DNA of 55,342 nucleotides from positions 1 to 55,342 of IMG/VR virus record IMGVR_UViG_3300029286_000049; one strand, written 5' to 3'. A program made the translations under genes and the position numbers. The DNA is from a virus. Shown here in pieces: positions 20,171-53,880 of the stretch (positions within the stretch are counted from its first letter, which is position 1; each line of letters starts with the position of its first letter). Below the pieces are notes generated by a model. The model did not search any database. It was not told the origin of the DNA and saw only the letters and a program-made list of their open reading frames with translations.

Positions 20171-20836
20171 TCCGTGAAGCTTTTCTGTAATTACAACTTC
20201 CTCGCCTTCTTTGATAACATCTGGGAAGTTAGCGAAATGTTCAATGTCGGTATACTTGTGGAAAAGCCTATGAGGTCTTTCGGCATCGCCATCGCAGCAT
20301 TCCATTGGAGGCTCCCACTTCGTAATTCCGAAATGTTCTTTTACATCAGTACCATCAACCCAATTAGGATCATCGCCTTTGTATGGATCGATATGGATGA
20401 TAAAACCAAAAGACTCTACTCCTCTCAAACGAGAAGCTTTAACTCTGCCTCCGGGTTGTTTCTCTCCGTCTGGAGTTTTAGGAAGCTCTGCGCAATAGTT
20501 CATAACACCCAATCTGCCGGGAGTTCCATCTTTCCATTGCAATTTCTCTCCGCAAATTACGCAAATGCCCTGTCCCGCATCAGACATCTTATTGAACATC
20601 TGACACTTTTCGTTTTTACAGACTTTCTCTGGACTGTTTGCCAATTTAGGCGGGAGAATGGAATCAGGCGGAAAATAAACACACAGATCGCCCTCATTAA
20701 ACTCTGCTCTTTGATGGACAGGATCATAACGAATGCAAGTTTTCCAACCCTTGACAGTGGCAATAGCAAGTTTATCTGCTGCCGGATGCTTTTCTACCTT
20801 ATCGACTTTACACACTTCAACTATGAGGCTACTCAT
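19874..20836 (-). CDS. RNA ligase N-terminal part with split-intein N-half
   Basis: I prefer the start MSSLIVEV at 20836 (or MIM at 20842), after GGGGGAAA; ten upstream in-frame codons are unlikely. The N-terminal OB-like domain (VEKHPAADKLAIATVKGW, GDLCVYFPPDSILP, SRLRGVESFGFI) resembles the DraRnl-type RNA ligases, with an extra Cys-rich insert (CKNEKCQMF...CVICGEK). The extein ends at EVVITEKLHG, the motif I K-x-x-G whose Lys is the adenylated nucleophile. The next residue is Cys1 of the intein N-half (98 residues). The split thus falls inside the active site, so no ligase can act before trans-splicing. Likely role: RNA repair. Confidence 0.9.
   Translation of the reverse strand: MSSLIVEVCKVDKVEKHPAADKLAIATVKGWKTCIRYDPVHQRAEFNEGDLCVYFPPDSILPPKLANSPEKVCKNEKCQMFNKMSDAGQGICVICGEKLQWKDGTPGRLGVMNYCAELPKTPDGEKQPGGRVKASRLRGVESFGFIIHIDPYKGDDPNWVDGTDVKEHFGITKWEPPMECCDGDAERPHRLFHKYTDIEHFANFPDVIKEGEEVVITEKLHGCLREDSKVMLANGEERNISEIIPGQYVISFDQEKNEFVEKRVIDVVRQDKSKEWIKLHFDNGDFICCTDDHLILTSNRGWVSAGLLTENDEIKSFDKG
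19876..19885 (-). promoter_or_regulatory. GATAAAGGAT element at end of split-intein N-half
   Basis: The element overlaps the last codons and stop of the ligase N-part and lies about 55 bases before the homing gene ATG at 19821. It is followed by GTATATATATGTATACGG. This suggests the homing gene has its own transcription start. Confidence 0.35.
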
Positions 20837-20903
20837 TATCATTTTCCCCCGAAATAGAAACGACACTTCCCCTAATACAACTTGTTATATTCTACCAGAT
20901 ATG

Positions 20904-26817: not shown

Positions 26818-26859
26818 ATTTATGATTGCTATTCCAACGTCTTCGTATATTACTTGCCA
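26818..26859 (-). pseudogene. Apparent remnant of capsid gene 3' region
   Basis: In the frame overlapping the homing gene's stop the minus strand reads WQVIYEDVGIAIIN, against WVIYEEIGIAIIN near the C-terminus of the major capsid protein (28030-28090). The DNA differs mostly at third codon positions, the pattern of a diverged homologue. The frame continues to a stop at 26782 without further likeness. It suggests the homing gene arrived with, or replaced, part of a capsid gene. Confidence 0.5.
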
Positions 26860-27842
26860 AAATGCTTCTTTATCTCTTCGATATGCTCTGGCAAAAACCT
26901 TGGCTTCCCCTTCTCTGTCGCCCTATAACACCCAATCTTCCCAACCTTCACAAGATATGCTAAATGAGTATAATCAATCCCTAACTCCTCTGCAACTTCA
27001 CTCATTCTCTTCGCGGCGAATCTCCACTCAGGTATATCAAACTTGTAATCATAACATTTAACTGGAGACTTCCTGCCAATAAAGTCAAAGAAGGCAGGAA
27101 TGCCTTTGGCATCAATCTGGATGCGATTATACCCGTTCTTATGGCATTGGATACCCTTATCCATTAAACGCGCCACAAGGTATTCTACGCCTTCTGGTGC
27201 GAATCCGTCTGTAGATAAACGCAATACAATAGTGTTATTCTGACAGACAACAGATCCATCTCCAAGATACCACATCATAACTGACTTAGGAGTTATGCGA
27301 ACATCTTGAGGAGGGTACTTTACTCTTTTTCCCGCGGAATTTTCTGGATACCATCGCATGTATTGATGATAAAGATCTGGATGAAACTTACTACTTCCAC
27401 ACCATACAAAGCCTTGCTTCATTTTGTTGCTATTATATTTATCTACCGTTGGTCGATACTCACAAAAACAATTCATAAAATAACGGCAAAATTCCTCATG
27501 CTCTAAACCGCATCTAAGCCTTGCCGAATGTATATCTTTATTGGACGCAAGACCAATACAGCCATCACCTATTAGAAACCCGTCAATAGATTCTATCAAG
27601 TTCTCAGATAAATATGATATATTATAATCTAATGGATTAGGATCTTCATTTCTTTTCCCCTCAGATATGCTTCTGCCGAAACCAAGCTTCTTAGCATACT
27701 TGTATACTGTTCCTATTGCTACGTTCTTCCCCTGTTTCTGCAACATTTCTGATATATCAGGAAAGGACATCCTTTTCGCGACGTAATACTCTTTGAAAAA
27801 CTCTTCTGTCAATAACTCTAAATAATGCGGTTGTTCTCTCAT
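26850..27842 (-). CDS. Free-standing LAGLIDADG homing endonuclease next to capsid gene
   Basis: The start at 27842 (MREQPHYLELL) follows GGAG; an ATG six codons earlier is less well placed. The 330-residue protein has an N-terminal helix-turn-helix-like region (MSFPDISEMLQKQGKN, GTVYKYAKKLGFGR), two LAGLIDADG-type motifs (SIDGFLIGDGCIG and MMWYLGDGSVV), and a C-terminal DNA-binding segment (RMSEVAEELGIDYTHLAYLV) like a second helix-turn-helix. It lies directly downstream of the major capsid gene, and its 3' end overlaps a short capsid-like remnant, so the capsid gene may be its target. Confidence 0.88.
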   Translation of the reverse strand: MREQPHYLELLTEEFFKEYYVAKRMSFPDISEMLQKQGKNVAIGTVYKYAKKLGFGRSISEGKRNEDPNPLDYNISYLSENLIESIDGFLIGDGCIGLASNKDIHSARLRCGLEHEEFCRYFMNCFCEYRPTVDKYNSNKMKQGFVWCGSSKFHPDLYHQYMRWYPENSAGKRVKYPPQDVRITPKSVMMWYLGDGSVVCQNNTIVLRLSTDGFAPEGVEYLVARLMDKGIQCHKNGYNRIQIDAKGIPAFFDFIGRKSPVKCYDYKFDIPEWRFAAKRMSEVAEELGIDYTHLAYLVKVGKIGCYRATEKGKPRFLPEHIEEIKKHFGK

Positions 27843-27902
27843 ATATTTCTCCTTATGCAAGATTATACTGCCTATACAATCACATTATCGGTAAATGGGG
27901 AA

Positions 27903-27993: not shown

Positions 27994-28881
27994 TTAAGCA
28001 GGATGGGCAGATGAGGCGGGTACAGTGACTTTTGCTATTGCATAGTCATTGATGATCGCGATTCCGATCTCCTCATATATCACCCAGCCCAAGCGAAGTT
28101 TCTTAGGATCGTCAGCAGGAAGTACGGTGATGTCCTGTCTGATTGGGAAAGCGCCTACCGTGTCAGGTGATGCAACTACCAATACGGTATCAACCGGCAT
28201 ACGAGAGCTGACGTGGATGTCAGCAGTCCAAAGGTGACCAAACAATCCAGTCGTGATAATCTCACGCTGAGATGCTTCGTCATAGAACTCTTTTCCGAAA
28301 AGACGAACCGCTGCGAACTGACGAGCATGCATGACGATCTTGGTGCAAACGAGGTCATGTCTCTCGATGTAGTAGTAAGCATCGTTCATGCTTTCTGGGG
28401 TGAGTACGTCGCCAGTCTCGACAACGATCTGATCGCCTCTTGCGTCAACAGCAGCCAACAAAGCGCGGAAGATATTTGTATCTTCCTCTTTCTGAATGGC
28501 TTCTTTTGCCTTGATTTGGGCACGATCTACAATGTAGAATCTACGTGCCTTAATCTCGGAAAGCTTAACTGTTGGGTGAGCTGCGATTTCGAAGGTCGGG
28601 ACAAGCACCTCTTCGCCCTCTACGAACATATCAGGTACAGCGCCTTTGCGGGCAACAACGTGTGCGATTGCAGCCGGATCTCTCTCGTAACGAGCAAGTG
28701 CGCCCTGTGGGAGTTCGTCTACCATAAGTAGCTTACGACCTACAGCCTGGTATTCCAAAGCGCGTCTAATTGGCTCGACCATAGCCTGTGCCAATGCAAC
28801 ACGCCCTTCTTCTGTCTCCATTGCCTGCGCAATGATTTCCTCTTTCTCTTTGTCTGTCAATGAATTCTTTGCAAATGCCAT
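27994..28881 (-). CDS. Major capsid protein, HK97-like fold
   Basis: The 295-residue protein has an N-terminal helix (EKEEIIAQAMETEEGRVALA), then VEPIRRALEYQAVGRKLL, a Pro-containing E-loop-like stretch (EVLVPTFEIAAHPTVKLSEI), a helix of ALLAAVDARGD and a C-terminal RLGWVIYEEIGIAIINDYAI-type segment typical of HK97-fold capsid proteins, where a final strand reads G-x-x-I-x-N-x-x-A-I-x-x-V. Codon use is markedly more G/C-rich at third positions than in neighbours, as expected for a very highly expressed gene. AGGAG precedes the ATG. It follows protease-scaffold and decoration genes, the standard head-module order. Confidence 0.8.
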   Translation of the reverse strand: MAFAKNSLTDKEKEEIIAQAMETEEGRVALAQAMVEPIRRALEYQAVGRKLLMVDELPQGALARYERDPAAIAHVVARKGAVPDMFVEGEEVLVPTFEIAAHPTVKLSEIKARRFYIVDRAQIKAKEAIQKEEDTNIFRALLAAVDARGDQIVVETGDVLTPESMNDAYYYIERHDLVCTKIVMHARQFAAVRLFGKEFYDEASQREIITTGLFGHLWTADIHVSSRMPVDTVLVVASPDTVGAFPIRQDITVLPADDPKKLRLGWVIYEEIGIAIINDYAIAKVTVPASSAHPA

Positions 28882-29512: not shown

Positions 29513-30679
29513 TTATCTACCATACTGTTTTCTAAGTTGAACCAACTCATCCGAATCAGCTTCAGCAACCTGTTTGCTAAGGCTAAACAAGGTTGAAAGC
29601 TTGTTTGACAATTCGCTTTGAGCATTCTTCTGATTATTAGCATGAGTACTTGCCTCGCTGATAATCACGGCTTGTTCCAAACCGTCTGATGCTGCGTTGA
29701 GTCCTTTCTTGCTTGAGAACATTGATTTCTCAATATCCTTTAGCTGTGCGATCCTATATTCGCTAAGTTCAGATACCTTTGAGGACAATTCTGCTGCCTT
29801 GATCATGCCTGTTTCAAGCATGCGTCCGGCGATTCTGAATGCCTCATTTACTCTGTCATTGGACTCCTTCTTACTTGCAGTCACGTTTCCTTTCTGTGAA
29901 TCATTACCAGTCATTTGATTTGTCTTTTCAGACTTGATGGCTGGATTATCTTTCTCTCCGCCGATTCTTGCATCCTTGGATGGAATCTCTGGAGCATTCT
30001 TTTCTGTTGGCTTCTCGCCAATGGACTCTTTTTCTTTTCCGATGAATCCGTCACCAGTTGGAACCTTTTGGTCCTTGGCTGGCTTTGCTTTCGGTACTGC
30101 GCCAATACTTTCTTCCTCATGTCCGATGAAACCAGTTCCAGTCGTCTTGCCGATATCTGGATCATCCTGCGGGAACTTTCTCTGCATCTTTTCTGCAATT
30201 CTCATTACAAGTTCGTCCATTCTGCTCTTTGGAGTAGACATTACGAAAGCAGCCTTCTCTTCCCCGCCAGCGCCCTTTTCTCCGCCTGTTGCGGTGTCAG
30301 TCAATTCAGAATCAAGTTCCTCATTTCCCATCTGTGCTGGACCTGTGAATACATCAGCTATGCTTGCCTTTGGAGGTTTCTCTTGCCCCATAGCAGCATT
30401 GCCTCTCGGAACAGATGGAGACTCTGCTTTGAATGGTTTCTCGTCGCCCAAAGCCTGACTTCCATCACCAATGTTTCCAACGCTGTCTTTTGCAACGTCT
30501 TGAGCTGGTTTCGTCTTTACGCTGCCAGCCTTTTTGCTCAAAGCTGCGATAACACCAGACAGGTCAAGATTGACCTCTCCAGTATTTCCGATATAGCCTT
30601 TTCTCATATACATATTGGACTCCGCTTCGACAGGATTCTCATCTCCTGCCTTCTCCATATTACTTTCCTTATTTGGCAT
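29513..30679 (-). CDS. Probable internal in-frame product 2
   Basis: AAAGGAG five bases before ATG 30679-30677 would start a 388-residue product (MPNKESNMEKAGDENP...). Its opening resembles that of internal product 1 (MANSNDKVEKVAGNP). It covers the charged C-terminal part with repeated phrases such as GDGFIGKEKESIGE and GTGFIGHEEESIGA. The role may be scaffold or core protein. Confidence 0.45.
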   Translation of the reverse strand: MPNKESNMEKAGDENPVEAESNMYMRKGYIGNTGEVNLDLSGVIAALSKKAGSVKTKPAQDVAKDSVGNIGDGSQALGDEKPFKAESPSVPRGNAAMGQEKPPKASIADVFTGPAQMGNEELDSELTDTATGGEKGAGGEEKAAFVMSTPKSRMDELVMRIAEKMQRKFPQDDPDIGKTTGTGFIGHEEESIGAVPKAKPAKDQKVPTGDGFIGKEKESIGEKPTEKNAPEIPSKDARIGGEKDNPAIKSEKTNQMTGNDSQKGNVTASKKESNDRVNEAFRIAGRMLETGMIKAAELSSKVSELSEYRIAQLKDIEKSMFSSKKGLNAASDGLEQAVIISEASTHANNQKNAQSELSNKLSTLFSLSKQVAEADSDELVQLRKQYGR

Positions 30680-33600
30680 AGAATCTCCTTTATTATTCTG
30701 AAGATTTTTTGCTGGATTGGTTTTTCCGCATGGACATTCTTTTTCAGAACCCTCGGATCCTTCTGTATTTTCCTCTTTTTCTGCAAATGGGTTCTCGTTT
30801 CCGCCTTCCTCATTTACATCATTTTCTACTGTATTTTCTACAACATCATCTACTTTATTCTCAACAGCTTCATTACCCATTTCAGAGTTTTCTGGCTTTA
30901 CTTCAAGCTCAATTTCAACACCTTCTGGAGTCTCACCAAAAGGAATCTCAATCTCGCCAGCTTCACCAGCTTCGCCTTCCTCGCCACCCGGATGAACCTG
31001 AGTGTCAAGAGCTTCGTCAAGCTGCTTTGCGACTTCCATAGGAAGTTCAATACTTACTGTCTCGCCAGCAGGACCATTCTCTACAATGCCTTCCTCTACT
31101 GGAGAAGAACCCATCTCACCGCCGTTATCATCGCCACTCATCTCTGGAGCGGGAGCGCCACCATTTCCACCACCATCTGGATCATCAAACGGATCTGTCT
31201 CTTCCTCTGCCTGAGGCTGTACGCCTTGTGTCTCTTCCATTCCAGAATTGCCAATTGCCTGTCCAATGCCTTCTGCAAGCATATCTTCGATGCCAGCATA
31301 CTTCATCTTCAAGCAATTGCAAATCGTAGAAGCTTCTTTCGTCTTGAAGCCCATTCTGATGTAATCTTCATTACATTCAGTTGTGCCTTCTTCTTCGCTC
31401 CAGATTCCGGCAACCTTCATTGCCATCTGGTTAGAATATACATTTGCCTTCTTCAAAGAATTGCATACGCACTCATAAAGAGGCTTGCCTTCGCATGGTC
31501 CGCTCATTGCAAGAGCTTCTTTGCCATATCTACGGGCAACTCTTTCCATGCAAGATTCCATTGGGAACTTGTCATCGCCAAGGCTGAATGTTGCTTTCTT
31601 GTACATAGCAAGAACAGAATCATTTGTGCTTGCAGTCTTAATTGTTCCAAGCTTACCGGCTTTCTTGAGAGCAAGAATTACTTTGCCCTTGTCTTTGAAT
31701 GACATCTTATCAAACTGTTCTTCGCTGACTTTTACAGTCTTCAAAGCGCTTGCAAATGCTTTCTTTGCTCTAGAGCAACTTGGGCATTCAGTGATAACAG
31801 GAGTGATATCCCATTCCCACTGTGCGAAAGCTTTCTTAGGATCTTTCTTGTCGATAGAGAATGCTACTCTGTACTCGCGTCCAGAATCCAAGCAAACATG
31901 CTTACCCTTGCCAAGATCAAGCGTATTAGAAGAACCAGTAATCGGGCTTACCGAACCGATCTTCTTAACGCCACCAGCAGAAGCCTTCTTCAAAGACTCT
32001 GGGTTAAGCTCTACCATAGATGCAAACTTCGTTACCAAATCATTCTTTACGCTGGCGGCGGCTGGCATTGCAGGAGCGCCACCGGCTGGCATACCACCCT
32101 CAGGTGCTGCACCAGCGGCAGGTGCTTCTGCGCCTGCTTCTGGAAGCTCAAAGCCTTCGCCTTCTGCCCCCTCTTCGCCTGCGCCTTCTTCGCCTTCCTT
32201 ATCTTCGCTGTCGTTTTCAAGAAGGTTTGCCCATCTTGCAACTTCAACCAATACTTTAAATCTGAATTCAGAACCACAGTTATTGCACTTACCAGATCCA
32301 TTAACAATGTCAACGTCTGCTGAAGTACATACTGGGCAAACTGAACCCGGTGGCTTCGGATCAAGATTCTGATCGTCACCGCCTTCAAGACCTTCGCCAA
32401 GATCAGACTGCTCAAAGCTCTCTACTGGAGGAGGAGTTTGTGCGCCAGGAGCGCCACCCGGAGCGGCTGCTGGAGGCTGAGGAAGCGTTGTTCCTCCACC
32501 TACACCACCACCCATCTCTCCACCAAGCATCTGAGATTCTTTCTTCATTGCAGTTCTAATCTGCTTACGAGAAGTTGCGAAAGCTCTATCTCTTGGCATT
32601 CTAGCTGCTGGTCCTTGACCCATGCCAGCGCCAATTCCGGCAGGCTCTTCGCCACCGAACTCACCACCGAACTCGCCACCGGACTCGCCACCTAGTTCTC
32701 CTCCAAGATCATTCTCTCCATCAAGACCTACGTCTCCACCTGGGATTACTTCACCTGGAAGTGCCTCGCCGCCTGTCTCCGCGCCCAAATCATCTTCTGC
32801 TCCGAAATCATCGGCAAGAGGATTAAGAGTTTCGTCACCTACTGGATTTCCCTCAATAGCGTCAAGATCAGAATTCGATGGTTCACCGAAACCTCCCTTA
32901 TCACCAGAAAGATCATCCATTTCAAAACCTTCATCTCCGCCAAGATCGCCTTCCATGCCAAGTCCAGCAGATGGATCTAATGCAGGTCTGCGTGTTCCTT
33001 TAAGGGACTTATCCTCATCACCAAACATGCCAGGATCGCTATACTGAGCAAATACTTTCTTCTCATTATCATTGAGTTTGCTTACGTCTTTAGCAGTCAA
33101 AACTACAAGACCCTTGCTCTTATCGGTATCTACCTTCGTGATAACGAACTTCAAACCGCTATCAGCAATCTGCTGACTTGCAAACTTATGAGCAGCCTTC
33201 AAGAAAGCAGCCTTATTATCTGCCTTTGGAGCAATACCAATTTCCTTTACAGTCGAATAAATCTGATATACGCCATCTTCTGGTCTGTCAATTTGATTGA
33301 TAGCATTCAAAAGCTGAGATGTCTTATTTACTGGCTGAGAAACCTTTGGAGTAGTGTTGATCTTTTCAGATGCAGACTTCTCTACGGTTGCCATTGCCTT
33401 GCTGTTCGCGGAAACAACCCCGATTGCTTCTACGATGTCATCAGCGCTAATGTCTTGTACCTTGCTTGCCATTGCCACGATCAAAGCGTCAATAGTGTCA
33501 GGGGTCTTAACTCCGCTAGATGCGATCTTTGAGAAGTAAGACATTCTTTCCTTTTCATTCTGAACAGCTTCTGCCTTGTGAGGCATAGAGTTAATAGCAA

Positions 33601-34219
33601 CAAGGAAAGATGCCTTTGCCTTGTTCTCTACTGAACCGTTTAATGTTGAAGCGGCTTTATAAATCTCGCTTGGGGTCTTGCCATAGAAAGCGATAACATC
33701 AGAAATTGCTTCCATAGCAGCCTTTGCGGTTTTGATAGGATCATAAGTATAAGCCCAACGAGCAAGAGCGCCGTCCTGATCGCTTAGCTGTTTCTGTGTG
33801 ATAGTCTCTGGAACGACGAAACGATGGTTGGTGCGAAAATCCAGAAGCTGTTTTTCAGTAATTCTGTCGCTCTGGTCATTACTCAACTTAGAACCAATCC
33901 ATCTGCTTACGTCTGTCCATTGCTTTTCAGTAATGACATCAGGTGCATCACCCCAGCGAGTTATATAACCGCTAGTAATGCTATCAAGCTGTTTCTCTGT
34001 AATAACTTCATAAGTCCCTAATCTTTCTTGTGGACTTGTGCTGGTCGTAACGTTTGCCTTGACATTCTCATCGACGTTATCAAGCTGTTTTTCAGTAATT
34101 TTATCTGGGGCTTTATCCCATCTTTCCCCTGTAAATTTGGCGCTATCAAGCTGCCTTTCAGTTGTGACATCCGTTGGATTTCCAGCAACTTTCTCGACCT
34201 TATCATTAGAATTTGCCAT
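29513..34219 (-). CDS. Probable internal in-frame product 1 (scaffold)
   Basis: An AAGGAG nine bases before an in-frame ATG at 34219-34217 would start a 1568-residue product (MANSNDKVEKVAGNP...) that omits the protease domain and begins just before the ITEKQL repeats. In lambda, the scaffold Nu3 is made from an internal start in the protease gene in the same way. Use of this site is inferred from the ribosome-binding site only. Confidence 0.5.
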   Translation of the reverse strand: MANSNDKVEKVAGNPTDVTTERQLDSAKFTGERWDKAPDKITEKQLDNVDENVKANVTTSTSPQERLGTYEVITEKQLDSITSGYITRWGDAPDVITEKQWTDVSRWIGSKLSNDQSDRITEKQLLDFRTNHRFVVPETITQKQLSDQDGALARWAYTYDPIKTAKAAMEAISDVIAFYGKTPSEIYKAASTLNGSVENKAKASFLVAINSMPHKAEAVQNEKERMSYFSKIASSGVKTPDTIDALIVAMASKVQDISADDIVEAIGVVSANSKAMATVEKSASEKINTTPKVSQPVNKTSQLLNAINQIDRPEDGVYQIYSTVKEIGIAPKADNKAAFLKAAHKFASQQIADSGLKFVITKVDTDKSKGLVVLTAKDVSKLNDNEKKVFAQYSDPGMFGDEDKSLKGTRRPALDPSAGLGMEGDLGGDEGFEMDDLSGDKGGFGEPSNSDLDAIEGNPVGDETLNPLADDFGAEDDLGAETGGEALPGEVIPGGDVGLDGENDLGGELGGESGGEFGGEFGGEEPAGIGAGMGQGPAARMPRDRAFATSRKQIRTAMKKESQMLGGEMGGGVGGGTTLPQPPAAAPGGAPGAQTPPPVESFEQSDLGEGLEGGDDQNLDPKPPGSVCPVCTSADVDIVNGSGKCNNCGSEFRFKVLVEVARWANLLENDSEDKEGEEGAGEEGAEGEGFELPEAGAEAPAAGAAPEGGMPAGGAPAMPAAASVKNDLVTKFASMVELNPESLKKASAGGVKKIGSVSPITGSSNTLDLGKGKHVCLDSGREYRVAFSIDKKDPKKAFAQWEWDITPVITECPSCSRAKKAFASALKTVKVSEEQFDKMSFKDKGKVILALKKAGKLGTIKTASTNDSVLAMYKKATFSLGDDKFPMESCMERVARRYGKEALAMSGPCEGKPLYECVCNSLKKANVYSNQMAMKVAGIWSEEEGTTECNEDYIRMGFKTKEASTICNCLKMKYAGIEDMLAEGIGQAIGNSGMEETQGVQPQAEEETDPFDDPDGGGNGGAPAPEMSGDDNGGEMGSSPVEEGIVENGPAGETVSIELPMEVAKQLDEALDTQVHPGGEEGEAGEAGEIEIPFGETPEGVEIELEVKPENSEMGNEAVENKVDDVVENTVENDVNEEGGNENPFAEKEENTEGSEGSEKECPCGKTNPAKNLQNNKGDSMPNKESNMEKAGDENPVEAESNMYMRKGYIGNTGEVNLDLSGVIAALSKKAGSVKTKPAQDVAKDSVGNIGDGSQALGDEKPFKAESPSVPRGNAAMGQEKPPKASIADVFTGPAQMGNEELDSELTDTATGGEKGAGGEEKAAFVMSTPKSRMDELVMRIAEKMQRKFPQDDPDIGKTTGTGFIGHEEESIGAVPKAKPAKDQKVPTGDGFIGKEKESIGEKPTEKNAPEIPSKDARIGGEKDNPAIKSEKTNQMTGNDSQKGNVTASKKESNDRVNEAFRIAGRMLETGMIKAAELSSKVSELSEYRIAQLKDIEKSMFSSKKGLNAASDGLEQAVIISEASTHANNQKNAQSELSNKLSTLFSLSKQVAEADSDELVQLRKQYGR

Positions 34220-35599
34220 TATATTAAGCTCCTTGTTCTCTTTATCTTGTGACTGTAGTGTATATACATATTCACTGACTTTTTGTATCCTATCCATAAT
34301 CTTCTGAGATTTGGCTAAAACTTCCTTTATTTTTTCCAGATTGGTATTTGAATTTTTCGGCGTAGTGACATATCCAAGGTTTCCCATACCCTCTGTTTGA
34401 ACATTTGGATTGCCAGTTGGTTGTTGAACTGGCTGCGGAGCAGCTTGTGGCTGAGAAGCCTGCATTTGTTCTCCAGCGGCACCAGTCGTATTTACATTCA
34501 TACCAGATGAACTTGTGGGTAAACCTATGTTCCAATCTATATTTGTAGGAGATGGGATCTGTAAAATACCCATTTCTACAAGCTCGTCTATTGTTCCCTG
34601 TATAGATGACATTGCCTCAACGATGTCAGTGACATACTCCATAGAAATCTTCTCTTTCTGAGACATCATAGATTTAGCAACTATTTCCATCTTATTCATC
34701 GCGTCATTAAGGAACTCAATTTCTTTCTTGCCCGCGACTTTTTCGAGATCGCACATTCCATTACTGCACTCAATTGCTTTTCCAAGTTTAGTAACAACAT
34801 TTCTCATGCCTGCTACTTTCTTAGACAATTCAGATGCATTCAAAATCTTTTCTACATTGCAATCATGGCAAGCAGGATTTACAACAAAACTGTCTTCAAT
34901 AAACTTAATGTCGAAGTTATGTTCATAAACATGAGCCTCTTTCTGGATAAGCTCATTGGTTTCGCCTTTCTTTTTGTGGCAAACTGGGCAAGCGTCATTT
35001 GGTTTACTTGGGCTATCGTGATACTGGCATTTGTAATTGCCAGATACTTTTCTATTCTTCTTCTCTTTGATATGTGTGCAATACTCATCTGCAACATGCG
35101 CCTTATTATGGCAAATAGAGCATAGAGAATAACTTACAGAGCATCCCATAGAAGAACCAGTAATATAGTTTTCTTCTATTCCTCTAGCAAGTTTAGGGTA
35201 AGCAGTCTTATCTACCATCCCTATAATATAAATACCATCTTTGTCATCATCGTACCAAGAATGGACTACTTTGCCTCTTGCCTTCTCTATATCATCATTC
35301 TGGTGATTGCAGAACATAGGAACGCCAACAAATGTTTCATAAGCTTTCTTAAGTTCTTTAGTGGAGAAGTAATCTGCATTGTCATTGACTTCATTTGCCT
35401 TGATAGCAAAAATCTTGACAAATAAATGTTCTGGATGATCCTTGATAGCAGAGGTAAGATCAAAACCGCCTAAATCTGTTTTGTCCTTATTAACCTTTGC
35501 TGTCTTAATGAAGGAAGTATTGATTTCTTCCCAATTGACAGGATCATTCAAAGTGTCCAAAGATACGATTTTATAATTTGCTTTTTTATCTATAGCCAT
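29513..35599 (-). CDS. Prohead protease fused to long scaffold-like region
   Basis: The 2028-residue frame starts with a prohead-protease-like domain: VKIFAIKANEVNDNADYF, GVPMFCNHQ (His99 candidate), GKVVHSWYDDD, and YITGSSMGCSV (Ser149/150 candidate), interrupted by a Cys-rich insert (157-252; CSICHNKAHV, CPVCHKKKG). Residues about 477-606 hold six ITEKQL-type repeats. Then come helical stretches, a long acidic Gly/Glu region (about 890-1100), a zinc-ribbon (CPVCTSADVDIVNGSGKCNNC, cited in parts), further Cys motifs, and an acidic C-terminal third ending in helices. Two strong internal ribosome-binding sites suggest shorter in-frame products, like lambda C/Nu3. Confidence 0.75.
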   Translation of the reverse strand: MAIDKKANYKIVSLDTLNDPVNWEEINTSFIKTAKVNKDKTDLGGFDLTSAIKDHPEHLFVKIFAIKANEVNDNADYFSTKELKKAYETFVGVPMFCNHQNDDIEKARGKVVHSWYDDDKDGIYIIGMVDKTAYPKLARGIEENYITGSSMGCSVSYSLCSICHNKAHVADEYCTHIKEKKNRKVSGNYKCQYHDSPSKPNDACPVCHKKKGETNELIQKEAHVYEHNFDIKFIEDSFVVNPACHDCNVEKILNASELSKKVAGMRNVVTKLGKAIECSNGMCDLEKVAGKKEIEFLNDAMNKMEIVAKSMMSQKEKISMEYVTDIVEAMSSIQGTIDELVEMGILQIPSPTNIDWNIGLPTSSSGMNVNTTGAAGEQMQASQPQAAPQPVQQPTGNPNVQTEGMGNLGYVTTPKNSNTNLEKIKEVLAKSQKIMDRIQKVSEYVYTLQSQDKENKELNIMANSNDKVEKVAGNPTDVTTERQLDSAKFTGERWDKAPDKITEKQLDNVDENVKANVTTSTSPQERLGTYEVITEKQLDSITSGYITRWGDAPDVITEKQWTDVSRWIGSKLSNDQSDRITEKQLLDFRTNHRFVVPETITQKQLSDQDGALARWAYTYDPIKTAKAAMEAISDVIAFYGKTPSEIYKAASTLNGSVENKAKASFLVAINSMPHKAEAVQNEKERMSYFSKIASSGVKTPDTIDALIVAMASKVQDISADDIVEAIGVVSANSKAMATVEKSASEKINTTPKVSQPVNKTSQLLNAINQIDRPEDGVYQIYSTVKEIGIAPKADNKAAFLKAAHKFASQQIADSGLKFVITKVDTDKSKGLVVLTAKDVSKLNDNEKKVFAQYSDPGMFGDEDKSLKGTRRPALDPSAGLGMEGDLGGDEGFEMDDLSGDKGGFGEPSNSDLDAIEGNPVGDETLNPLADDFGAEDDLGAETGGEALPGEVIPGGDVGLDGENDLGGELGGESGGEFGGEFGGEEPAGIGAGMGQGPAARMPRDRAFATSRKQIRTAMKKESQMLGGEMGGGVGGGTTLPQPPAAAPGGAPGAQTPPPVESFEQSDLGEGLEGGDDQNLDPKPPGSVCPVCTSADVDIVNGSGKCNNCGSEFRFKVLVEVARWANLLENDSEDKEGEEGAGEEGAEGEGFELPEAGAEAPAAGAAPEGGMPAGGAPAMPAAASVKNDLVTKFASMVELNPESLKKASAGGVKKIGSVSPITGSSNTLDLGKGKHVCLDSGREYRVAFSIDKKDPKKAFAQWEWDITPVITECPSCSRAKKAFASALKTVKVSEEQFDKMSFKDKGKVILALKKAGKLGTIKTASTNDSVLAMYKKATFSLGDDKFPMESCMERVARRYGKEALAMSGPCEGKPLYECVCNSLKKANVYSNQMAMKVAGIWSEEEGTTECNEDYIRMGFKTKEASTICNCLKMKYAGIEDMLAEGIGQAIGNSGMEETQGVQPQAEEETDPFDDPDGGGNGGAPAPEMSGDDNGGEMGSSPVEEGIVENGPAGETVSIELPMEVAKQLDEALDTQVHPGGEEGEAGEAGEIEIPFGETPEGVEIELEVKPENSEMGNEAVENKVDDVVENTVENDVNEEGGNENPFAEKEENTEGSEGSEKECPCGKTNPAKNLQNNKGDSMPNKESNMEKAGDENPVEAESNMYMRKGYIGNTGEVNLDLSGVIAALSKKAGSVKTKPAQDVAKDSVGNIGDGSQALGDEKPFKAESPSVPRGNAAMGQEKPPKASIADVFTGPAQMGNEELDSELTDTATGGEKGAGGEEKAAFVMSTPKSRMDELVMRIAEKMQRKFPQDDPDIGKTTGTGFIGHEEESIGAVPKAKPAKDQKVPTGDGFIGKEKESIGEKPTEKNAPEIPSKDARIGGEKDNPAIKSEKTNQMTGNDSQKGNVTASKKESNDRVNEAFRIAGRMLETGMIKAAELSSKVSELSEYRIAQLKDIEKSMFSSKKGLNAASDGLEQAVIISEASTHANNQKNAQSELSNKLSTLFSLSKQVAEADSDELVQLRKQYGR
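33782..34171 (-). repeat. ITEKQL repeat array in protease-scaffold protein
   Basis: Residues 477-606 carry six copies of a motif: VTTERQL, KITEKQL, VITEKQL, VITEKQW, RITEKQL and TITQKQL, spaced about 20-32 residues apart, most with an R-W or K-W pair before the next copy. Two further copies (VTTEKQM, QITEKQI) occur in the protein at 49850-50815. This may be a docking repeat between head proteins. Confidence 0.8.
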
Positions 35600-36346: not shown

Positions 36347-36838
36347 TTACGTTTTAACGTGTCTTGGAATGTTTACATTAGCAAGATCGTGCAATGTATA
36401 GTTCCTTTGATTCTGTGGATAAGACAAACCCCACATCTCTACGGCGTGACTCAATGCGCTAGCTATAGTGCTGAAGTATTCTCCGCTAGGCGCATATATC
36501 TTCTTCCTTTTCCATTTTGGAGGCAATCTTTTGATACCAGAGAAGAATCTCTTCTTACCCTGTTTGGTTAATGCCGGTCCTACAATAATGAAATAATCTG
36601 CATCTGTAGTATAATCATGACCTTCCCATCTGTAGTAAGCGCCTTGACCTATATCTCTGTCAAACCTTATCTTCAAGTCATCAGACTTCTCGCGGTATGC
36701 TTCTTTCCAGTCTATACCACGGTCTTTAATCCTTTTGCGACTTGCATCTTTAATTAAAGAATCTATGTCTACATAAGCCTTATGCAAACCAGACATTTGC
36801 CTATCTGTACTTATCATAGATTTGTGCAAATTAAACAT
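36347..36838 (-). CDS. Uncharacterised head-region protein
   Basis: The 163-residue protein begins MFNLHKSMISTDRQ, a loose version of the leader. It is basic in the middle (RKRIKDRGIDWKEAYREK) and has a compact C-terminal domain (DYFIIVGPALTKQGKKRFF, SGEYFSTIASALSHAVEMWG). Its ATG overlaps the portal stop by one base (TAATG), so it is coupled to the portal gene. No family recognised. A portal-associated or head-completion role is a guess from position. Confidence 0.65.
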   Translation of the reverse strand: MFNLHKSMISTDRQMSGLHKAYVDIDSLIKDASRKRIKDRGIDWKEAYREKSDDLKIRFDRDIGQGAYYRWEGHDYTTDADYFIIVGPALTKQGKKRFFSGIKRLPPKWKRKKIYAPSGEYFSTIASALSHAVEMWGLSYPQNQRNYTLHDLANVNIPRHVKT

Positions 36839-39800
36839 TATTTAGTCCCTATTAGGTAAACACATCCAAGGTTATTAGGAAGAATCTCTTTATCAATTAT
36901 CACATTCTCTTGGTTAATATAATCTAAGATTATATGACCAGCAGCAACTTTAATCATACTGAAATCTGCATCAGCGGCTTTGACTCTTTTTCTCTTTTCT
37001 TTTTCAGCAGCACTCAATTGCTGATATATAACTTTCTGCACTTCTGCTGGTGAATCCTCTATGGCGTTCTCATTAAATCTCATTATTCTCCATCCAATGT
37101 TAGCCAGCTTCACATCTCTAGCTTTGTCTCTAGCTTTTGATTCAGCATCTTCATGCCATTTCTGACCATCTGCCTCTATGCCAACGCCGACAGCAGGATA
37201 AGCAAAATCTATATTGAAAGGAAATTGTTGTCCTGGGACTTGAACCTTGTATTGACCATATAAGTTATACGGGACTTTCATGCCGCTCAACATATTATAC
37301 ATCTGAGACTCAAGCTTAGTCAGAGCCAAAGGCATCTTAACAGACTTAGCCTTTTGTTGCTCTTGCATCTGCTCCATAAACGATTTGCCACCTTTGCCTC
37401 TCTTAGTGACCTTGAAACCTTCTGCTGCCGCAGGCATTCCAGGTGCTCCGCCAGGAGCGCCACCCATGCCTCCTCCCATACCTCCCATACCTCCCATACC
37501 TTCCATGCCTGGAGCGCCACCCATTTCTCCGCCAGGTGCGCCGGGAGCGCCGCCAGGTGCGCCAGGCGCGCCGCCACCGCCCATATCCATAGGAGCGCCA
37601 CCGCCTCCTCCGCCCATGCCTCCCATACCGCCACCTTCTTGTCCACCAAGTTGACCTTGAGGACCAGCCATAATCATCTCTTCTCTTATCTTCTGAAGCT
37701 CATCATCATAGCTAAGACCAAACTCTTTAAGAAGCGTATCATTAGAAACAAGACCTTTATCATTCATTTGCATAAACATCTGCATCTTATTAGAATTGTC
37801 TCTAAGGTTAAGATCATTCCATTTGATAGTTGGCTTGAGCCATACTTCTTCTCCAACCATTTCAGATTCTTCATCGTCCCTAAAACCTTGCATCATAGAA
37901 ACAGGCAGGAAGATATGTTGCTCAATCCATTCACTTAAAATGTTTTGCCATCCCTGTAAACGGCGTATCAAAGCTTCGACACCAACCTGAGCACTTCCCC
38001 ACGCTGGACCTTCACCATTTAAAAGGCTCTGGTTCAACATCATCCCGTCAAGAATCTCTTTTCCAATAGCATCCATTTCGGCAGTTATATTATGTATCTT
38101 TCCAGAATTTCCCTGAATAGCAATCTTTCCATTACGCATAGTCACGAAGAATCCAGTAGAAGTCTCGAAACACCATACTTTGCCTTTATAGTATTCTTTA
38201 GAAACATGATCATCTTTTATTCTTGGGAAACGACCCTTTCCGTTATCTGTCATATTACAATTAATTACATATTGCTTACCTTTTCTATACTGACTTAGCA
38301 CAGGTGATAATCCGCATTTAAACAAGACTTCTAGCATATCATCGGCTAAATTTTTACTATTAGTCCCTGCTTGAATTGCGAAAGATTCATCATATACATA
38401 TTTTGATGCGTCTCCCTTGCAATACGCCTCTGCCAAAATCATAAGTTTTTCAGGAGGCAAATTCTTTATCCAATTGGGAATTTTCTTTTCATTAGAATTA
38501 TGACCAAACCATTCACCTATTTGCCTTGCTACATCCTTCATCAAAATGTTCCATGTTGTGGCTCTACCTTCATAGGCATATTTACTAAACTTCATGCCAA
38601 GCGAAGGCATAATTTCATCTATTTCTTCACAGTATTCTGGGTTGGCGGATGGAGACTGACCTATCGAAACTATATAACGTCGTTTCTCAGGCTTAAATTC
38701 ACAATGTCCCTCTGATAAATAATACCCGGCAAATCTTAGAAAATCATCTATTGGGACTTTATATCCACAAACATCAATTTCTTCAACCACCTGCTCTGCT
38801 GAATCATATTCCGCAACGCATCTTACATATCTATCACATTCATTTATAATAGCGAAATCTTTAGCTTGCATAGTATAAGCAGTTTTAAGATCTCTTTTAT
38901 ACCCAAGCATTTTATGACTAGGGGTTACTAACATATCCATTTTATTGCCGAAAAACTTAACCATTTCCCCATCATAATCATATTCATGAAGCTTTAATGG
39001 TTTTTCATATCTCATTTTGCCTGTTTTAGAATCAAATACCATTATCTCATCATCTGCTGTAACTTCCCAATAATTCTTCCAGCCAGATTTACATAAAGCC
39101 TTGGTATCACTAGAGTTACACGCCCCAAACCATTCGTACTCGAAAGCGTGGTGAGTGATCAATGTAAGATTAGGATCATTCGCTACAGCAGATAGCTGTG
39201 CGGATACATCTGCGATGTCATCAGGAGTAGCAGGACGTTCTTTGTCACCGATCTTAACTACTCTTACTGGAAGCACAAGTCTTTCTGCTATAATCCAGTT
39301 TGCAGTCATTAACTTTGTCTTATAAGCGAGAATAGTAAACAATCTACGAAGCATAGACGTACCATACACGCCATAAGGGGCGGCATTATGTCTTAAATGA
39401 CTTATACAGCGATTTGACAGCGGGATAGGTAATCCACTAACAATCATACCAATAATCTTTGGTGGAAGCCTCTTATAGATTTGTTCTGGTTTCTTTCTCT
39501 GAACAAGCATTCTCAGCTCTTCATCTGGGATAAGTGAGAAAACTGGTTCAGGAGCAAGTGAGTTTTTCTGAGCTTCAATCCAGTCAGGATTCAATATAAC
39601 GATTCTCTTTATTTTTCCGCCAGGATGTCTGCAAGACTCGCCTGTTGGAAGAACGCCGCCACCGCCGCATATTGGGCATTCCATCTCAATAAACGGAAAT
39701 ACGTCGCCAATCATATGATACTCATGACTAATGTATTTAAGAATTGCATTCAACTGTAAGTCCTTCACAAGCTTCTCGAAGAACTTCAAAACTTTCTTAT

Positions 39801-40167
39801 CTTTGCACTCTAGCTTAAACCCGTTAATTGGGAAGTGACCATAGAAATCTATGGCGGCAGCTACTTTAGGTTCATTCTCATAATAGAATCTAGCCCATTG
39901 ATAGCATTCTCTTCTTTTAGAAGCAATCTGCCAGTTTTGCGGAGTATGAAGGGGGCTAAAGAACATGGGCTGTGTCATTGTGACATTAGCACCTGATCCA
40001 GCAAATTGAGAATACTTAGTAATAGGCACTTTGACCGTATCGCTAGTAGTATATTTCATATTCCTAGAATAGCCGCTAGAATCGCCTCTAAAAGAACCAG
40101 ACGCTGCGGTTAATATATTTCTGACTTTCTCAGAGCGTTTATCAAGAACGTTAAACTTAATGGGCAT
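36838..40167 (-). CDS. Portal protein with intein and C-terminal nuclease-like domain
   Basis: The 1109-codon frame encodes a portal protein (RRECYQWARFYYENEPKVAA, HMIGDVFPFIE, NRCISHLRHNAAPYGVYGTS, WIIAERLVLPVRVVKIG) cut at residue 349 by an intein (350-687), then the rest of the portal (GEGPAWGSAQVGVEALIRRL, WIEQHIFLPVSMMQGF). After a Gly/Met/Pro-rich linker (about 837-917) comes a domain at about 949-1052 like DUF559/Vsr-type nucleases: FNIDFAYPAVGVGIEADGQK, then WHEDAESKARDKARD and GWRIMRFNENAI. After splicing, 771 residues remain. AAGGAG precedes the ATG. A CPICGGGGVLPTGESC loop (about 164-179) may bind zinc. Confidence 0.87.
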   Translation of the reverse strand: MPIKFNVLDKRSEKVRNILTAASGSFRGDSSGYSRNMKYTTSDTVKVPITKYSQFAGSGANVTMTQPMFFSPLHTPQNWQIASKRRECYQWARFYYENEPKVAAAIDFYGHFPINGFKLECKDKKVLKFFEKLVKDLQLNAILKYISHEYHMIGDVFPFIEMECPICGGGGVLPTGESCRHPGGKIKRIVILNPDWIEAQKNSLAPEPVFSLIPDEELRMLVQRKKPEQIYKRLPPKIIGMIVSGLPIPLSNRCISHLRHNAAPYGVYGTSMLRRLFTILAYKTKLMTANWIIAERLVLPVRVVKIGDKERPATPDDIADVSAQLSAVANDPNLTLITHHAFEYEWFGACNSSDTKALCKSGWKNYWEVTADDEIMVFDSKTGKMRYEKPLKLHEYDYDGEMVKFFGNKMDMLVTPSHKMLGYKRDLKTAYTMQAKDFAIINECDRYVRCVAEYDSAEQVVEEIDVCGYKVPIDDFLRFAGYYLSEGHCEFKPEKRRYIVSIGQSPSANPEYCEEIDEIMPSLGMKFSKYAYEGRATTWNILMKDVARQIGEWFGHNSNEKKIPNWIKNLPPEKLMILAEAYCKGDASKYVYDESFAIQAGTNSKNLADDMLEVLFKCGLSPVLSQYRKGKQYVINCNMTDNGKGRFPRIKDDHVSKEYYKGKVWCFETSTGFFVTMRNGKIAIQGNSGKIHNITAEMDAIGKEILDGMMLNQSLLNGEGPAWGSAQVGVEALIRRLQGWQNILSEWIEQHIFLPVSMMQGFRDDEESEMVGEEVWLKPTIKWNDLNLRDNSNKMQMFMQMNDKGLVSNDTLLKEFGLSYDDELQKIREEMIMAGPQGQLGGQEGGGMGGMGGGGGGAPMDMGGGGAPGAPGGAPGAPGGEMGGAPGMEGMGGMGGMGGGMGGAPGGAPGMPAAAEGFKVTKRGKGGKSFMEQMQEQQKAKSVKMPLALTKLESQMYNMLSGMKVPYNLYGQYKVQVPGQQFPFNIDFAYPAVGVGIEADGQKWHEDAESKARDKARDVKLANIGWRIMRFNENAIEDSPAEVQKVIYQQLSAAEKEKRKRVKAADADFSMIKVAAGHIILDYINQENVIIDKEILPNNLGCVYLIGTK
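37012..37323 (-). other. DUF559/Vsr-like nuclease domain fused to portal
   Basis: Residues about 949-1052 follow the pattern E-x-x-M/L...Y-x-x-Q-x-x-V, F-x-x-D-F-A-Y, G-x-x-I-E-A-D-G-x-x-W-H, a K/R-D repeat helix, then G-W-R-I-M-R-F. Candidate catalytic residues are Asp in NIDF, Glu in IEADG and His in KWH. It is in frame with the portal and separated only by a flexible linker. Confidence 0.7.
38107..39120 (-). mobile_element. LAGLIDADG intein in portal protein
   Basis: The intein of 338 residues starts at Cys350 (CNSSDTKALC), has block B-like MDMLVTPSHKML (T-x-x-H), endonuclease motifs FAGYYLSEGHCE and LAEAYCKGDAS, and ends GKVWCFETSTGFF then GKIAIQGN before Ser+1. Extein residues on either side (EYEWFGA and SGKIHNI) join smoothly. 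Confidence 0.92.
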
Positions 40168-50883: not shown

Positions 50884-53880
50884 TTATCGTCTTGGATACT
50901 GCGGCAACCTAGACCTATTCTCCAATCTCTTTGCAACCTGTTCTCCAGAACCGAATCCTAAAGGTCCAGACATAGAATTCCACTGGATCTGGTTTGATTG
51001 ACCACATATACCTGTATTAACAAGTTTCGCTTTAGGCAATCTATTTGCAAATACGTTAATAGAGTTATAGCAGGCTCCAGCTAACGAATCTACCAAATCG
51101 TCTGTAGTGACATCTCCCTCTCTTCGCGGAAAAATACGATAACCATTGGAACCCAAAGGTTTTCTTTGGATGTTCAGTAATTCATTTTTCAAAAGATGAT
51201 CTTCTGGAAGAATAAGTTTTCCACTAACGATCAAGTTATACAACTCGTCATATATTTTCATTTTGTAAACATGATTATATCTTGTGCATTTTGCAGGAAT
51301 ACCATTAGATTGAAGCTTCTTAATACTCTCTAAAGAGTTATGAGAGACTAACCCATTAGATATATAAGTATGATCTCCAGATACTTCCAGATGACAAATA
51401 GTCGCTGTAGTAGGTTCTATAGAAACAACCTTATCAAACATTTGACGACTTCTGGATTTTTTCTTTCCGACTATTTTTCTAATACCACGGCTCTTTCTCT
51501 TGTAATATGGTCTCAAATCAACATCATTTTTTAGACGAATAACTTCTTTTAGAACATTTTTTTTAGTCATAGATCTAAAGTTTATTTCTCTGGCGAATAT
51601 ATCTATATTTTCTCCATATATAGTTATTCTATAAAATGGATATTGTTTACCATCCAGGAACTTATTAGTAAAGTATCTTAGAGAAGATTTTATCCCAAAA
51701 CATAGCAATAATAATTGTAGATCTTTTGCCAATTCCTTACTACTTGTATTATACTCTACTGATAAAGCTTTTGGATTATGGCAAACATTACCATCTCCTT
51801 CGTAAAGAGAAGATATAAAAGACGATACTGTCTCTTTGTCACCATTCATGACAAAATCTGGAACACTTTTCGAATAACAATCACCAGATACTATGCCTTT
51901 TATCTTTCTGGCTCTTTCCCCAAAATAATTAGCATTCCAAGAATCTAAATGATACTCTTTTTGTTTCTTACCTCGTTTGTGTATATATGGCTTATCTCCC
52001 ATAACTTTTTCGGCAACGGCAAGATAATCTTGAAATACTTCATAATCTGTATTAGTAAAAACAGCAGTATCTTCTTTTTCTGATATATAACCTTCAGATA
52101 CTAAATAGCCCATCATAAGTGCAGTATCGGGGTCATGTACATTACCGAAATGAGTAAAATCTTGCAAATCTATCCTATCGCCTATATCAAGATCTTTCGC
52201 ATATATAAAATCTGAACCATTCCAGAAAGGATGATTTTTAGTCACTGTCGCCTCATATCCGAATTTTGTACGAACCGTTAAACAATCTGCATTAAGATCG
52301 ACTTTTTTAGCGACTATAGTCTCTATGTCTCCTTTTCTATTCCTTATTAAATCTCCAACCTGAACATCAATAACTTTTTGCAATCCTTTTGCTGTACATA
52401 TCCTTGTTAAATAATGGCAAGTATTCCATTGATCGTATGTCACCAGACCAAGATTAAATCTTCTTCTCATCTTTATGACATAATCATCAACTTCTTCTAC
52501 TTTAACTGGTTTTCCTGGCGTTGGATGCCAAAACTTAACATGGTCTACAACAATAACAAAGTCATTCTTCTTAGTCTCTTTATTGATGAAGTTCTCTCTA
52601 TGTAGCACGACAAGAGCATAGTTGTGGCTTGTAGACGCAGGGTCCAAATGGGCAAAATACAAAAATCCAGGTCTCCCCAAATCCTTATTCTTAACTCCGA
52701 ATTGTCTGCCGAGTTCAAAACAATGTTTAACGCTTTCTGCCGGGAATGCGTTTTCACCAGCAGTACCAGAGAACTCAGCTCCGATTTCCATCCAGAATTC
52801 TTCTTCTGTCATATTCGGATTGGCTCTACGAAGCGACTCAATAGATTCTCTTGGGTTTACTGACCATGTAGGCAATCTACAGGATAATCTATCCTCTACG
52901 TCATGAGTCTCTTTGAAGATCTTATAAAAAATGCCTTCTTGACCTCTAGGAGAAGATATAGAAAGTATCTTACTATCATAAACACGGCGAGTAACAGGAA
53001 CACCATCAACACTAATTTTTTGTTTTCCGTCTTCATCTAAGACAGGAAGATTTCTGCCGAAAGTGTTCAAAGAAGGTGTCATAGCAGTATAAATACGTTC
53101 TCCAGAAGAGGCGCTTCCAGTTTGCTTATAAGATGCAACTTCATCAAGAATAAGAACGAAAACGCTTTTACCTAGCAACGTGTCTGAATTGCTGTGACCC
53201 ACTTCAAGGCATATAGAACCTTTTTTCAAAGGCAATTTCTTCCTTTCAAACTCTTTGTTTTCTTCTTTATCTTTTGGAGTAAGCAAAAAGATCTGGTTAG
53301 AAGTGATACCATCTGGAATAAACTTATCAGCGAAATATGGGCTTTTCAGTATCTTTGATTTCATCTCGTTGAAAGCTAACTGAGCCTGCCCGGCAGCAGT
53401 AGCGATAGTTAAAATCGTAATCGGAGCTGAAGCAGCAATGTTATAAACCGCATATGGATCTCCGCCAGGGCATTCAAGCAATCTCATAGCCTCATAACAG
53501 GCAACAGTACCTACGCAGAAATCTTTACCAGATCTTCGTCCCCAAACAAGTACAAGCTCTCTGAAAATCTTGTTGCTTTCATACTTCTGTAAAACATTAC
53601 CATTCTCATCATTAGTAAGCTCAAGTTTCTTGAGCAACTCTATCTCTTCATCTTCTAACTTCAGATTCTCATTTCCGGCAGACCCTCTATAAAAGACCTT
53701 AAACATTATCTTTTGCATAGGATAAAGCTGGATACCAGTATGAGGAAAATCCAGGTACTTAGTACTCTCACAGAATTCCATAATGCTAGGGATATAAGGC
53801 GGTTTATCATTGGAGACAGGGATAGTCCCCATCATATCTTTCAACATATCTGAAACAGAAACAAACTTTTTACTAGGCAT
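50884..53880 (-). CDS. Terminase large subunit with intein
   Basis: The 998-codon frame encodes the packaging motor. The ATPase has Walker A ELVLVWGRRSGKD (108-120) and Walker B FVLILDEVA (241-249), then a coupling-motif-like ILSISSPRG. The nuclease has YFAHLDPASTSHNYALVVLH (408-427, first Asp), VIVVDHVKFW, then LVTYDQWNT, where an intein (488-848) interrupts, rejoining as SLESIKKLQ. The C-terminus holds DDLVDSLAGACY, the last nuclease Asp. After splicing, 637 residues remain, a normal size. AGGAG precedes the ATG. It cuts and translocates phage DNA into the prohead. Confidence 0.93.
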   Translation of the reverse strand: MPSKKFVSVSDMLKDMMGTIPVSNDKPPYIPSIMEFCESTKYLDFPHTGIQLYPMQKIMFKVFYRGSAGNENLKLEDEEIELLKKLELTNDENGNVLQKYESNKIFRELVLVWGRRSGKDFCVGTVACYEAMRLLECPGGDPYAVYNIAASAPITILTIATAAGQAQLAFNEMKSKILKSPYFADKFIPDGITSNQIFLLTPKDKEENKEFERKKLPLKKGSICLEVGHSNSDTLLGKSVFVLILDEVASYKQTGSASSGERIYTAMTPSLNTFGRNLPVLDEDGKQKISVDGVPVTRRVYDSKILSISSPRGQEGIFYKIFKETHDVEDRLSCRLPTWSVNPRESIESLRRANPNMTEEEFWMEIGAEFSGTAGENAFPAESVKHCFELGRQFGVKNKDLGRPGFLYFAHLDPASTSHNYALVVLHRENFINKETKKNDFVIVVDHVKFWHPTPGKPVKVEEVDDYVIKMRRRFNLGLVTYDQWNTCHYLTRICTAKGLQKVIDVQVGDLIRNRKGDIETIVAKKVDLNADCLTVRTKFGYEATVTKNHPFWNGSDFIYAKDLDIGDRIDLQDFTHFGNVHDPDTALMMGYLVSEGYISEKEDTAVFTNTDYEVFQDYLAVAEKVMGDKPYIHKRGKKQKEYHLDSWNANYFGERARKIKGIVSGDCYSKSVPDFVMNGDKETVSSFISSLYEGDGNVCHNPKALSVEYNTSSKELAKDLQLLLLCFGIKSSLRYFTNKFLDGKQYPFYRITIYGENIDIFAREINFRSMTKKNVLKEVIRLKNDVDLRPYYKRKSRGIRKIVGKKKSRSRQMFDKVVSIEPTTATICHLEVSGDHTYISNGLVSHNSLESIKKLQSNGIPAKCTRYNHVYKMKIYDELYNLIVSGKLILPEDHLLKNELLNIQRKPLGSNGYRIFPRREGDVTTDDLVDSLAGACYNSINVFANRLPKAKLVNTGICGQSNQIQWNSMSGPLGFGSGEQVAKRLENRSRLPQYPRR
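51337..52419 (-). mobile_element. LAGLIDADG intein in terminase nuclease domain
   Basis: The intein of 361 residues starts at Cys488 with an atypical block A (CHYLTRICTAKG), has block B EATVTKNHPFW, endonuclease motifs MMGYLVSEGYIS and ISSLYEGDGNV, and ends HTYISNGLVSHN before Ser+1. It interrupts TYDQWN(T/S), a conserved segment of the terminase nuclease. Confidence 0.93.

Follow-up and report, generated by a model that had tools for sequence, protein, structure and literature searches.

We found that the portal gene of the window, the whole 55,342-base IMG/VR virus record analysed here, encodes a portal protein whose chain continues in one frame into a nuclease-like domain, and this fusion is genuine and conserved and has apparently not been described before. 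In our judgement there is about an even chance that it represents a fixed fusion of the portal with a predicted catalytically competent DUF559/EDxHD (Vsr-like) endonuclease that cuts DNA in head assembly or packaging. At the sequence level, the single frame, the co-inheritance of domain and portal, the invariant predicted active site, the purifying selection in close pairs and the absence of the domain from phage G are all seen, and structure prediction shows a disordered tether that would leave the crown end of the portal. Portals are usually viewed as passive channels, with packaging nuclease activity credited to the terminase or to separate helpers. If the proposed reading is true, the portal would combine the roles of channel and enzyme, and a DNA-cutting activity would be located within the head, where the DNA enters, fixed across diverse phages with contigs of up to 548 kb, which raises the question of what stops it from destroying the genome being packaged.

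An earlier, sequence-only reading of this DNA had pointed to the fusion and did not know it as a described feature. Consistent with this, no account of a portal–DUF559 or portal–nuclease fusion was found in the portions of the openly licensed PMC literature that were searched, including PMC7824862, PMC13282480 and PMC8530359; a prior description elsewhere is possible. Portal-associated packaging nucleases are already known, and it is apparently the portal-fused form that is new.

Architecture and predicted fold of the portal–nuclease protein

The ORF runs in one frame through the portal, an intein, the rest of the portal, a Gly/Met/Pro linker and a DUF559/Vsr-like nuclease (Table 1; residues follow Met-based numbering). 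The span to which the sequence-only reading had assigned the fusion, 36838-38106 on the minus strand, is exactly the portal C-extein plus the stop codon. The motifs listed there, FxxDFAY, GIEADGxKWH and GWRIMRF, are all found in the C-extein translation, as FNIDFAY, GIEADGQKWH and GWRIMRF, and the nuclease indeed lies apart from the intein (residues 350-687) and downstream of the Gly/Met/Pro-rich linker (residues 835-912). A linker-like segment of 90-162 residues between the HMM matches is present in all 73 fused portals described below (relatives taken from the top 80 of 128 matches in one search and the top 80 of 112 in another).

Table 1 Features of the portal–nuclease gene and of two further head and packaging genes in the window.
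Feature	Position	Strand	Basis or remark
Portal–nuclease fusion ORF	36838..40167	-	1109 aa, ATG start; phrog_16240 portal E 6e-39; DUF559
Portal N-extein, residues 1-349	39121..40167	-	35% identity with phage G gp14 where the two align
Intein, residues 350-687	38107..39120	-	N-terminal Cys, ends ..GN before Ser; boundaries from sequence; intein-type matches
C-extein, residues 688-1109	36841..38106	-	Portal C-terminal part, linker, nuclease, tail
Gly/Met/Pro-rich flexible linker, 78 residues (835-912)	37432..37665	-	Low pLDDT in the model of an intein-free relative
Basic motif KVTKRGKG, residues 919-926, conserved, precedes nuclease	37390..37413	-	Relatives have a comparable K-rich motif
DUF559/Vsr-like nuclease domain, about residues 946-1054	37009..37332	-	Pfam match, predicted fold, profile hits 3hrl and 3r3p
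D987, predicted catalytic Asp, invariant (68/68)	37207..37209	-	Alignment of unsplit domains
E998-A-D1000-G1001 motif, E and G 68/68, D 66/68	37165..37176	-	Intein insertion point in 5 relatives
H1005, invariant (68/68)	37153..37155	-	Alignment of unsplit domains
C-terminal tail PNNLGCVYLIGTK, residues 1097-1109	36841..36879	-	Belongs to a predicted hairpin; some members of the clade have a similar tail
Neighbouring 2028-aa ORF with N-terminal head-maturation-protease-like region; candidate processor of head proteins	29513..35599	-	phrog_18299 E 4.9e-12
Terminase large subunit, intein-bearing	50884..53880	-	RNase-H-type nuclease motifs apparently intact

The claim that a nuclease-like domain is fused to the portal agrees with the Pfam search, in which PF04480 (DUF559) matched the window domain with E 2.9e-9 and 37.2 bits against a cut-off of 20.6, while MTES_1575 scored 38.0 bits, just under its cut-off of 38.2. 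The putative assignment of the domain to the nucleases is well above chance, and a six-frame search of the record found DUF559 in this copy only. Comparison of a sequence profile with the PDB retrieved the DUF559 protein 3hrl (1.4e-8) and the homing endonuclease I-Bth0305I, 3r3p (3.9e-7). DUF559 and MTES_1575 were the only Pfam matches of the C-terminal domain, so that the Endonuclease VII family was not among them; PF08722, the TnsA-like family of T4 gp4, was not reported for the domain at E values up to 1, whereas T4 gp4 itself matched it.

When the window domain was modelled with 68 aligned sequences, the mean pLDDT was 83, and residues 41-150 of the domain model fell in pLDDT blocks of 93-98 except for one of 85. 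In VIA-align comparisons the model was closest to 3hrl (Z 11.9, rmsd 1.6 over 93), followed by I-Bth0305I 3r3p (Z 11.0), Vsr 1cw0 (Z 9.6), AbaSI (Z 7.7), PvuRts1I (Z 6.6) and TnsA (Z 6.2); mitochondrial ribosomal proteins with Z 8.5-8.7 stand among the Vsr rows of the same listing. Foldseek likewise ranked 3hrl at the top, with E 5.6e-4. Structure prediction, which had been proposed as a check on the sequence-only reading, thus recovered the nuclease core rather than a fold lacking it, and the prediction shows a Vsr/I-Bth0305I-type nuclease fold. By family resemblance, D987, E998 and H1005 form the predicted active site.

To place the domain on the portal, we considered a model of the whole protein of an intein-free relative (L010), built from a 28-row alignment and of modest confidence (pLDDT 67.8, pTM 0.48). 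From residue 74 to about residue 499 the model aligns with complete portal structures (top Z 18.7), including T4 gp20 3ja7 with Z 15.8 and rmsd 6.3 over 337 residues, reaching gp20 residue 516; the modelled chain therefore has the predicted portal fold of clip, stem, wing and crown. Residues 495-590 lie below pLDDT 50, and the nuclease follows. In T4, the portal stem, wing and crown are inside the capsid, according to PMC9958956. Because the portal-aligned part ends at about residue 499 and the T4 crown is inside the capsid, the tether most likely starts at the portal crown, inside the head, as judged by alignment of a single-chain model and not of an assembled ring.

Distribution and inheritance of the fusion

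Five relatives (L004-L008) were found among viral contigs with a C-extein query, which contained the nuclease, and in all of them the portal, the Gly/Met/Pro linker and the nuclease lie in one frame; their inteins sit at different sites. To avoid circularity, the later 160 rows, which include overlapping contigs, were found with alignments of the portal N-extein only: A2 contributed the top 80 of 128 matches, and A4, an alignment headed by phage G, the top 80 of 112. With HMMs made from the initial alignments we identified 164 portal ORFs, of which 153 have their 3' end; the 11 cut at the 3' end were left out. Counting as distinct those portals that differ in their last 350 residues gave 75, the window included.

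The nuclease is in the same ORF in 73 of these 75 distinct portals with intact 3' ends (window included; relatives from the two sets of 80 best-scoring matches, out of 128 and 112). A search for the fusion in relatives had been proposed together with the sequence-only reading, and the same one-frame arrangement was thus recovered in 72 further distinct portals from those best-scoring matches. A frameshift or assembly artefact joining two genes, which had been raised as an objection, is rejected, because the 72 other distinct portals among the matches listed share the same frame. Contigs with relatives reach 547,943 bases among the matches listed, and DUF559 was matched in 10 of the 12 large records tested. 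The fusion is a clear marker for this jumbo-phage clade.

The two portals without the nuclease are Bacillus phage G gp14 and that of L095, whose portal match shares 88% identity with that of G. Phage G (NC_023719, Donellivirus) therefore offers a natural contrast: gp14 is a homologous portal, 35% identical in the N-extein region and likewise with a Gly/Pro-rich tail at its end, but it is without the nuclease domain, and no DUF559 match was found anywhere in the phage G genome (497,513 bases). Since phage G and L095 are without the domain, and portals in general are not known to have it, the simplest history would be a single acquisition after divergence from the G lineage, although the G lineage may instead have lost the domain. 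At about the position of KVTKRGKG (window 37390-37413; L003 7812-9758), the chain of the phage G portal finishes in a comparable basic stretch, hinting that this stretch may mark where the nuclease was added.

A nuclease profile from the first 6 sequences (A1) found 6 loci only among viral contigs, all on contigs of the portal set, and the phage collection gave five weak matches to the nuclease, one of them a phage homing endonuclease. A single scan of bacterial and archaeal genome contigs with the portal profile found no relative. The nearest non-portal relatives of the domain remain little sampled.

Eleven residues are invariant in all 68 unsplit domains (D987, E998, G1001, H1005, D1014, R1017, D1018, L1021, G1025, W1026 and R1030, as confirmed on alignment A5); residue 1000 is D in 66 and E in 2 of the 68, and E953 is conserved in 58. 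Pairwise identity averages 0.45 in the nuclease domain, with a minimum of 0.26, and 0.60 in the portal N-extein region, with a minimum of 0.44. We calculated dN/dS for 16 pairs whose portal synonymous difference was 0.02 to 0.6, and our conclusions rest on the five closest, in which the nuclease gave 0.013-0.047 and the portals' own values were equally low; the 11 more distant pairs gave 0.155-0.527 with near-saturated synonymous sites and are little informative. These values show strong purifying selection on the nuclease in close pairs, as estimated from substitution patterns.

Across 56 sequences, pairwise distances of the nuclease correlated with those of two portal parts (r 0.81 and 0.75; null maxima 0.14 and 0.23), nearest neighbours for nuclease and portal were the same in 31 of 56, and 14 of the 16 well supported nuclease splits were common to the portal, with 1 conflicting. 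The domain has thus for the most part co-evolved with the portal.

The portals of the clade are also rich in insertions. Large insertions were counted in 45 of 73 portals among the matches listed, by a crude length rule; one sub-entry, the 84-residue site a of L014, is probably no intein. There are several intein sites in the clade, with three insertions in some portals, and the intein arrangement of the relatives differs from that of the window portal. In 5 of the 73 domains among the matches listed (L014, L044, L051, L079 and L088) an intein splits the nuclease itself inside ExDG (E|C...N|CDG..WH), so that this putative active-site motif is itself an intein target.

Possible roles of the portal-borne nuclease

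Under the proposed reading, each portal ring would hold some twelve nuclease domains, attached by long tethers and facing the capsid interior, and these may cut DNA during head assembly or packaging. Their most likely job would be to remove flaps, branches and other aberrant DNA at the portal vertex, or to trim DNA. The portal nuclease could then be a covalent counterpart of two T4 head nucleases, the portal-bound gp49 and gp4, which serves in head completion. As described in PMC9958956, gp49 (endonuclease VII) is a resolvase that binds the portal gp20 and releases branched DNA stalled in packaging. Like gp49, the domain described here is physically associated with the portal, but covalently and in one frame and apparently on the crown side, whereas gp49 is a separate protein of another fold family. 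T4 gp4, according to PMC7824862, is a TnsA-like nuclease needed for packaging and offers a restriction-endonuclease-fold packaging nuclease in another large-phage group, but it is a separate 150-aa protein of PF08722. The main difficulty is that a tether on the crown side could hardly reach branches stalled at the outer, clip-side entrance. Given the predicted interior position of the tether, branch clearing would have to take place while the shell is being built or earlier, or else at the channel exit; cutting may occur as the head assembles, where DNA leaves the channel, or on the end of the packaged DNA.

We considered whether the portal nuclease makes up for the loss of nuclease function in the terminase. 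Retained in the window TerL are HLDPAS, YDQWN|S (interrupted by an intein) and TDDLVDSLAGA, which we take to be the three acidic nuclease motifs of TerL, and replacement is not supported, since these motifs look intact in the window TerL, the only one considered. Because the terminase apparently has its own nuclease, the cut at the end of packaging would need no portal nuclease. The intein of TerL, which has a LAGLIDADG domain, sits in the YDQWN|S nuclease motif.

Resolvase genes were surveyed in phage G, as the one phage without the fusion, and in 7 large fused records, which are possibly incomplete and represent about five lineages, as two pairs share portal C-termini. RuvC was found in phage G (7.7e-23) and in none of the 7 fused records, while Endonuclease_7 was found in 1 of the 7 and not in phage G. 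RusA and RecU were found in none of these 8, Phage_endo_I was matched in 1 of the 8, below the cut-off, and PF08722 was found in neither phage G nor the 7 fused records but was found in T4 as a control. The search with Pox_A22 gave no match anywhere and is uninformative. Since RuvC occurs in the fusion-less phage G and in 0 of 7 fused records, the survey invites the idea that the portal nuclease may do resolvase-like work in place of RuvC. A jumbo-phage lineage may thus have built a second, dedicated endonuclease into its portal ring, with about twelve tethered domains projecting into the head from the crown and replacing the stand-alone resolvase kept by phage G, a scenario that we consider possible but, on balance, doubtful.

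The strongest rival is that the portal acts as a cargo carrier, in which a head-maturation protease would cut the linker and the freed nuclease would leave the virion together with the genome and, soon after infection begins, attack the DNA of the host or of a competitor. A family resembling head-maturation proteases is present in 12 of 12 large records, and the long linker would suit release. According to PMC5694885, the prohead protease of giant phages cleaves their portals, and head proteins that have been processed are ejected, but the portal processing known there, in giant phages of another group, takes off an N-terminal propeptide and not a C-terminal domain. A delivery role has also been proposed for the MuF-toxin fusions of prophages, which likewise join a C-terminal enzymatic domain to a head-vertex protein (PMC3482391); MuF toxins, as delivered effectors usually do, vary widely, whereas a single DUF559-type domain occurs in 73 of 73 fused portals among the matches listed. 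The counterpart of the window's protease-like ORF in phage G is only about 300 aa, and most fused-portal records have frames of 1,600-2,245 aa (846 in one). In the 2028-aa ORF the pattern K-x-A-[SGNAQ], chosen after looking, occurs 17 times against 3.6 expected, and a slightly wider K-x-A form, also post hoc, follows the nuclease in 50 of 73 portals among the matches listed; this candidate protease site is only a lead, and its having been picked post hoc counts against the cargo explanation. We consider release and ejection unlikely.

If the domain instead cut DNA with or without modification, so that only the phage's own DNA was packaged, its resemblance to AbaSI (Z 7.7) and PvuRts1I (Z 6.6), nucleases that depend on DNA modification, and the DNA methyltransferase pieces encoded in the window would fit. 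However, the tool regards Z values in this range as possibly reflecting no more than a shared arrangement, a domain that reads modifications was not observed and the methyltransferase gene is interrupted, and discrimination of foreign DNA in this way appears improbable. A nuclease-derived domain that binds DNA or has a structural role, and does not cut, is still less probable. Structural domains can retain a nuclease fold, but here the residues predicted to form the metal site and to act in catalysis are identical in 68 of 68 domains while the rest drifts to 26% identity.

The sequence-only reading had offered two interpretations, a packaging-linked nuclease that would trim the genome or exclude foreign DNA, and a former homing nuclease captured at the portal C-terminus. 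The latter may hold for the origin of the domain, as I-Bth0305I is one of the two relatives of solved structure that the sequence profile retrieved with good scores, but it does not describe the present state, in which the domain is fixed and largely co-inherited with the portal. DUF559 proteins, I-Bth0305I and Vsr resemble the domain in profile, fold and the ExDG..WH motif; unlike them, it is fused to a portal and inherited with it, and no homing or mismatch-repair context is seen. A captured homing endonuclease that is still selfish, for example by aiding the spread of portal inteins, would be in keeping with I-Bth0305I among the closest solved relatives, with the phage homing endonuclease among the five phage matches and with the abundance of inteins (large insertions in 45 of 73 portals among the matches listed). 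A homing element would, however, be patchy and independent of host-gene phylogeny, whereas 73 of 75 portals among the matches listed carry the domain, r is 0.81 and only 1 of 16 splits conflicts; moreover, the domain is also present in portals without insertions, and its own ExDG motif is an intein target. We regard persistent selfishness as very improbable indeed, and a packaging-linked nuclease would fit the present state better than a former homing nuclease.

Other features of the window

The methyltransferase locus at 15033-18194 (N6_N4_Mtase, phrog_67) consists of two ORFs separated by an HNH/endonuclease-VII-like ORF (16024-16497), the first of the two carrying an intein, and it resembles a putative fractured or intein-invaded gene. 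LAGLIDADG homing-endonuclease ORFs are located at 3759-4730 and 26850-27860, the second of which adjoins the major head protein gene at 27994-28881 (phrog_2522 E 7.4e-66). The C-terminal part of the ORF at 18880-19905 gave a sub-threshold match to the MTES_1575 restriction-endonuclease family (E 7.4e-4, 20 bits against a cut-off of 38.2). In the ORF at 19874-20866, an RNA-ligase-like part (phrog_968 E 2.8e-27) is joined to a C-terminal match to a helicase family (phrog_16259 E 6.1e-12).
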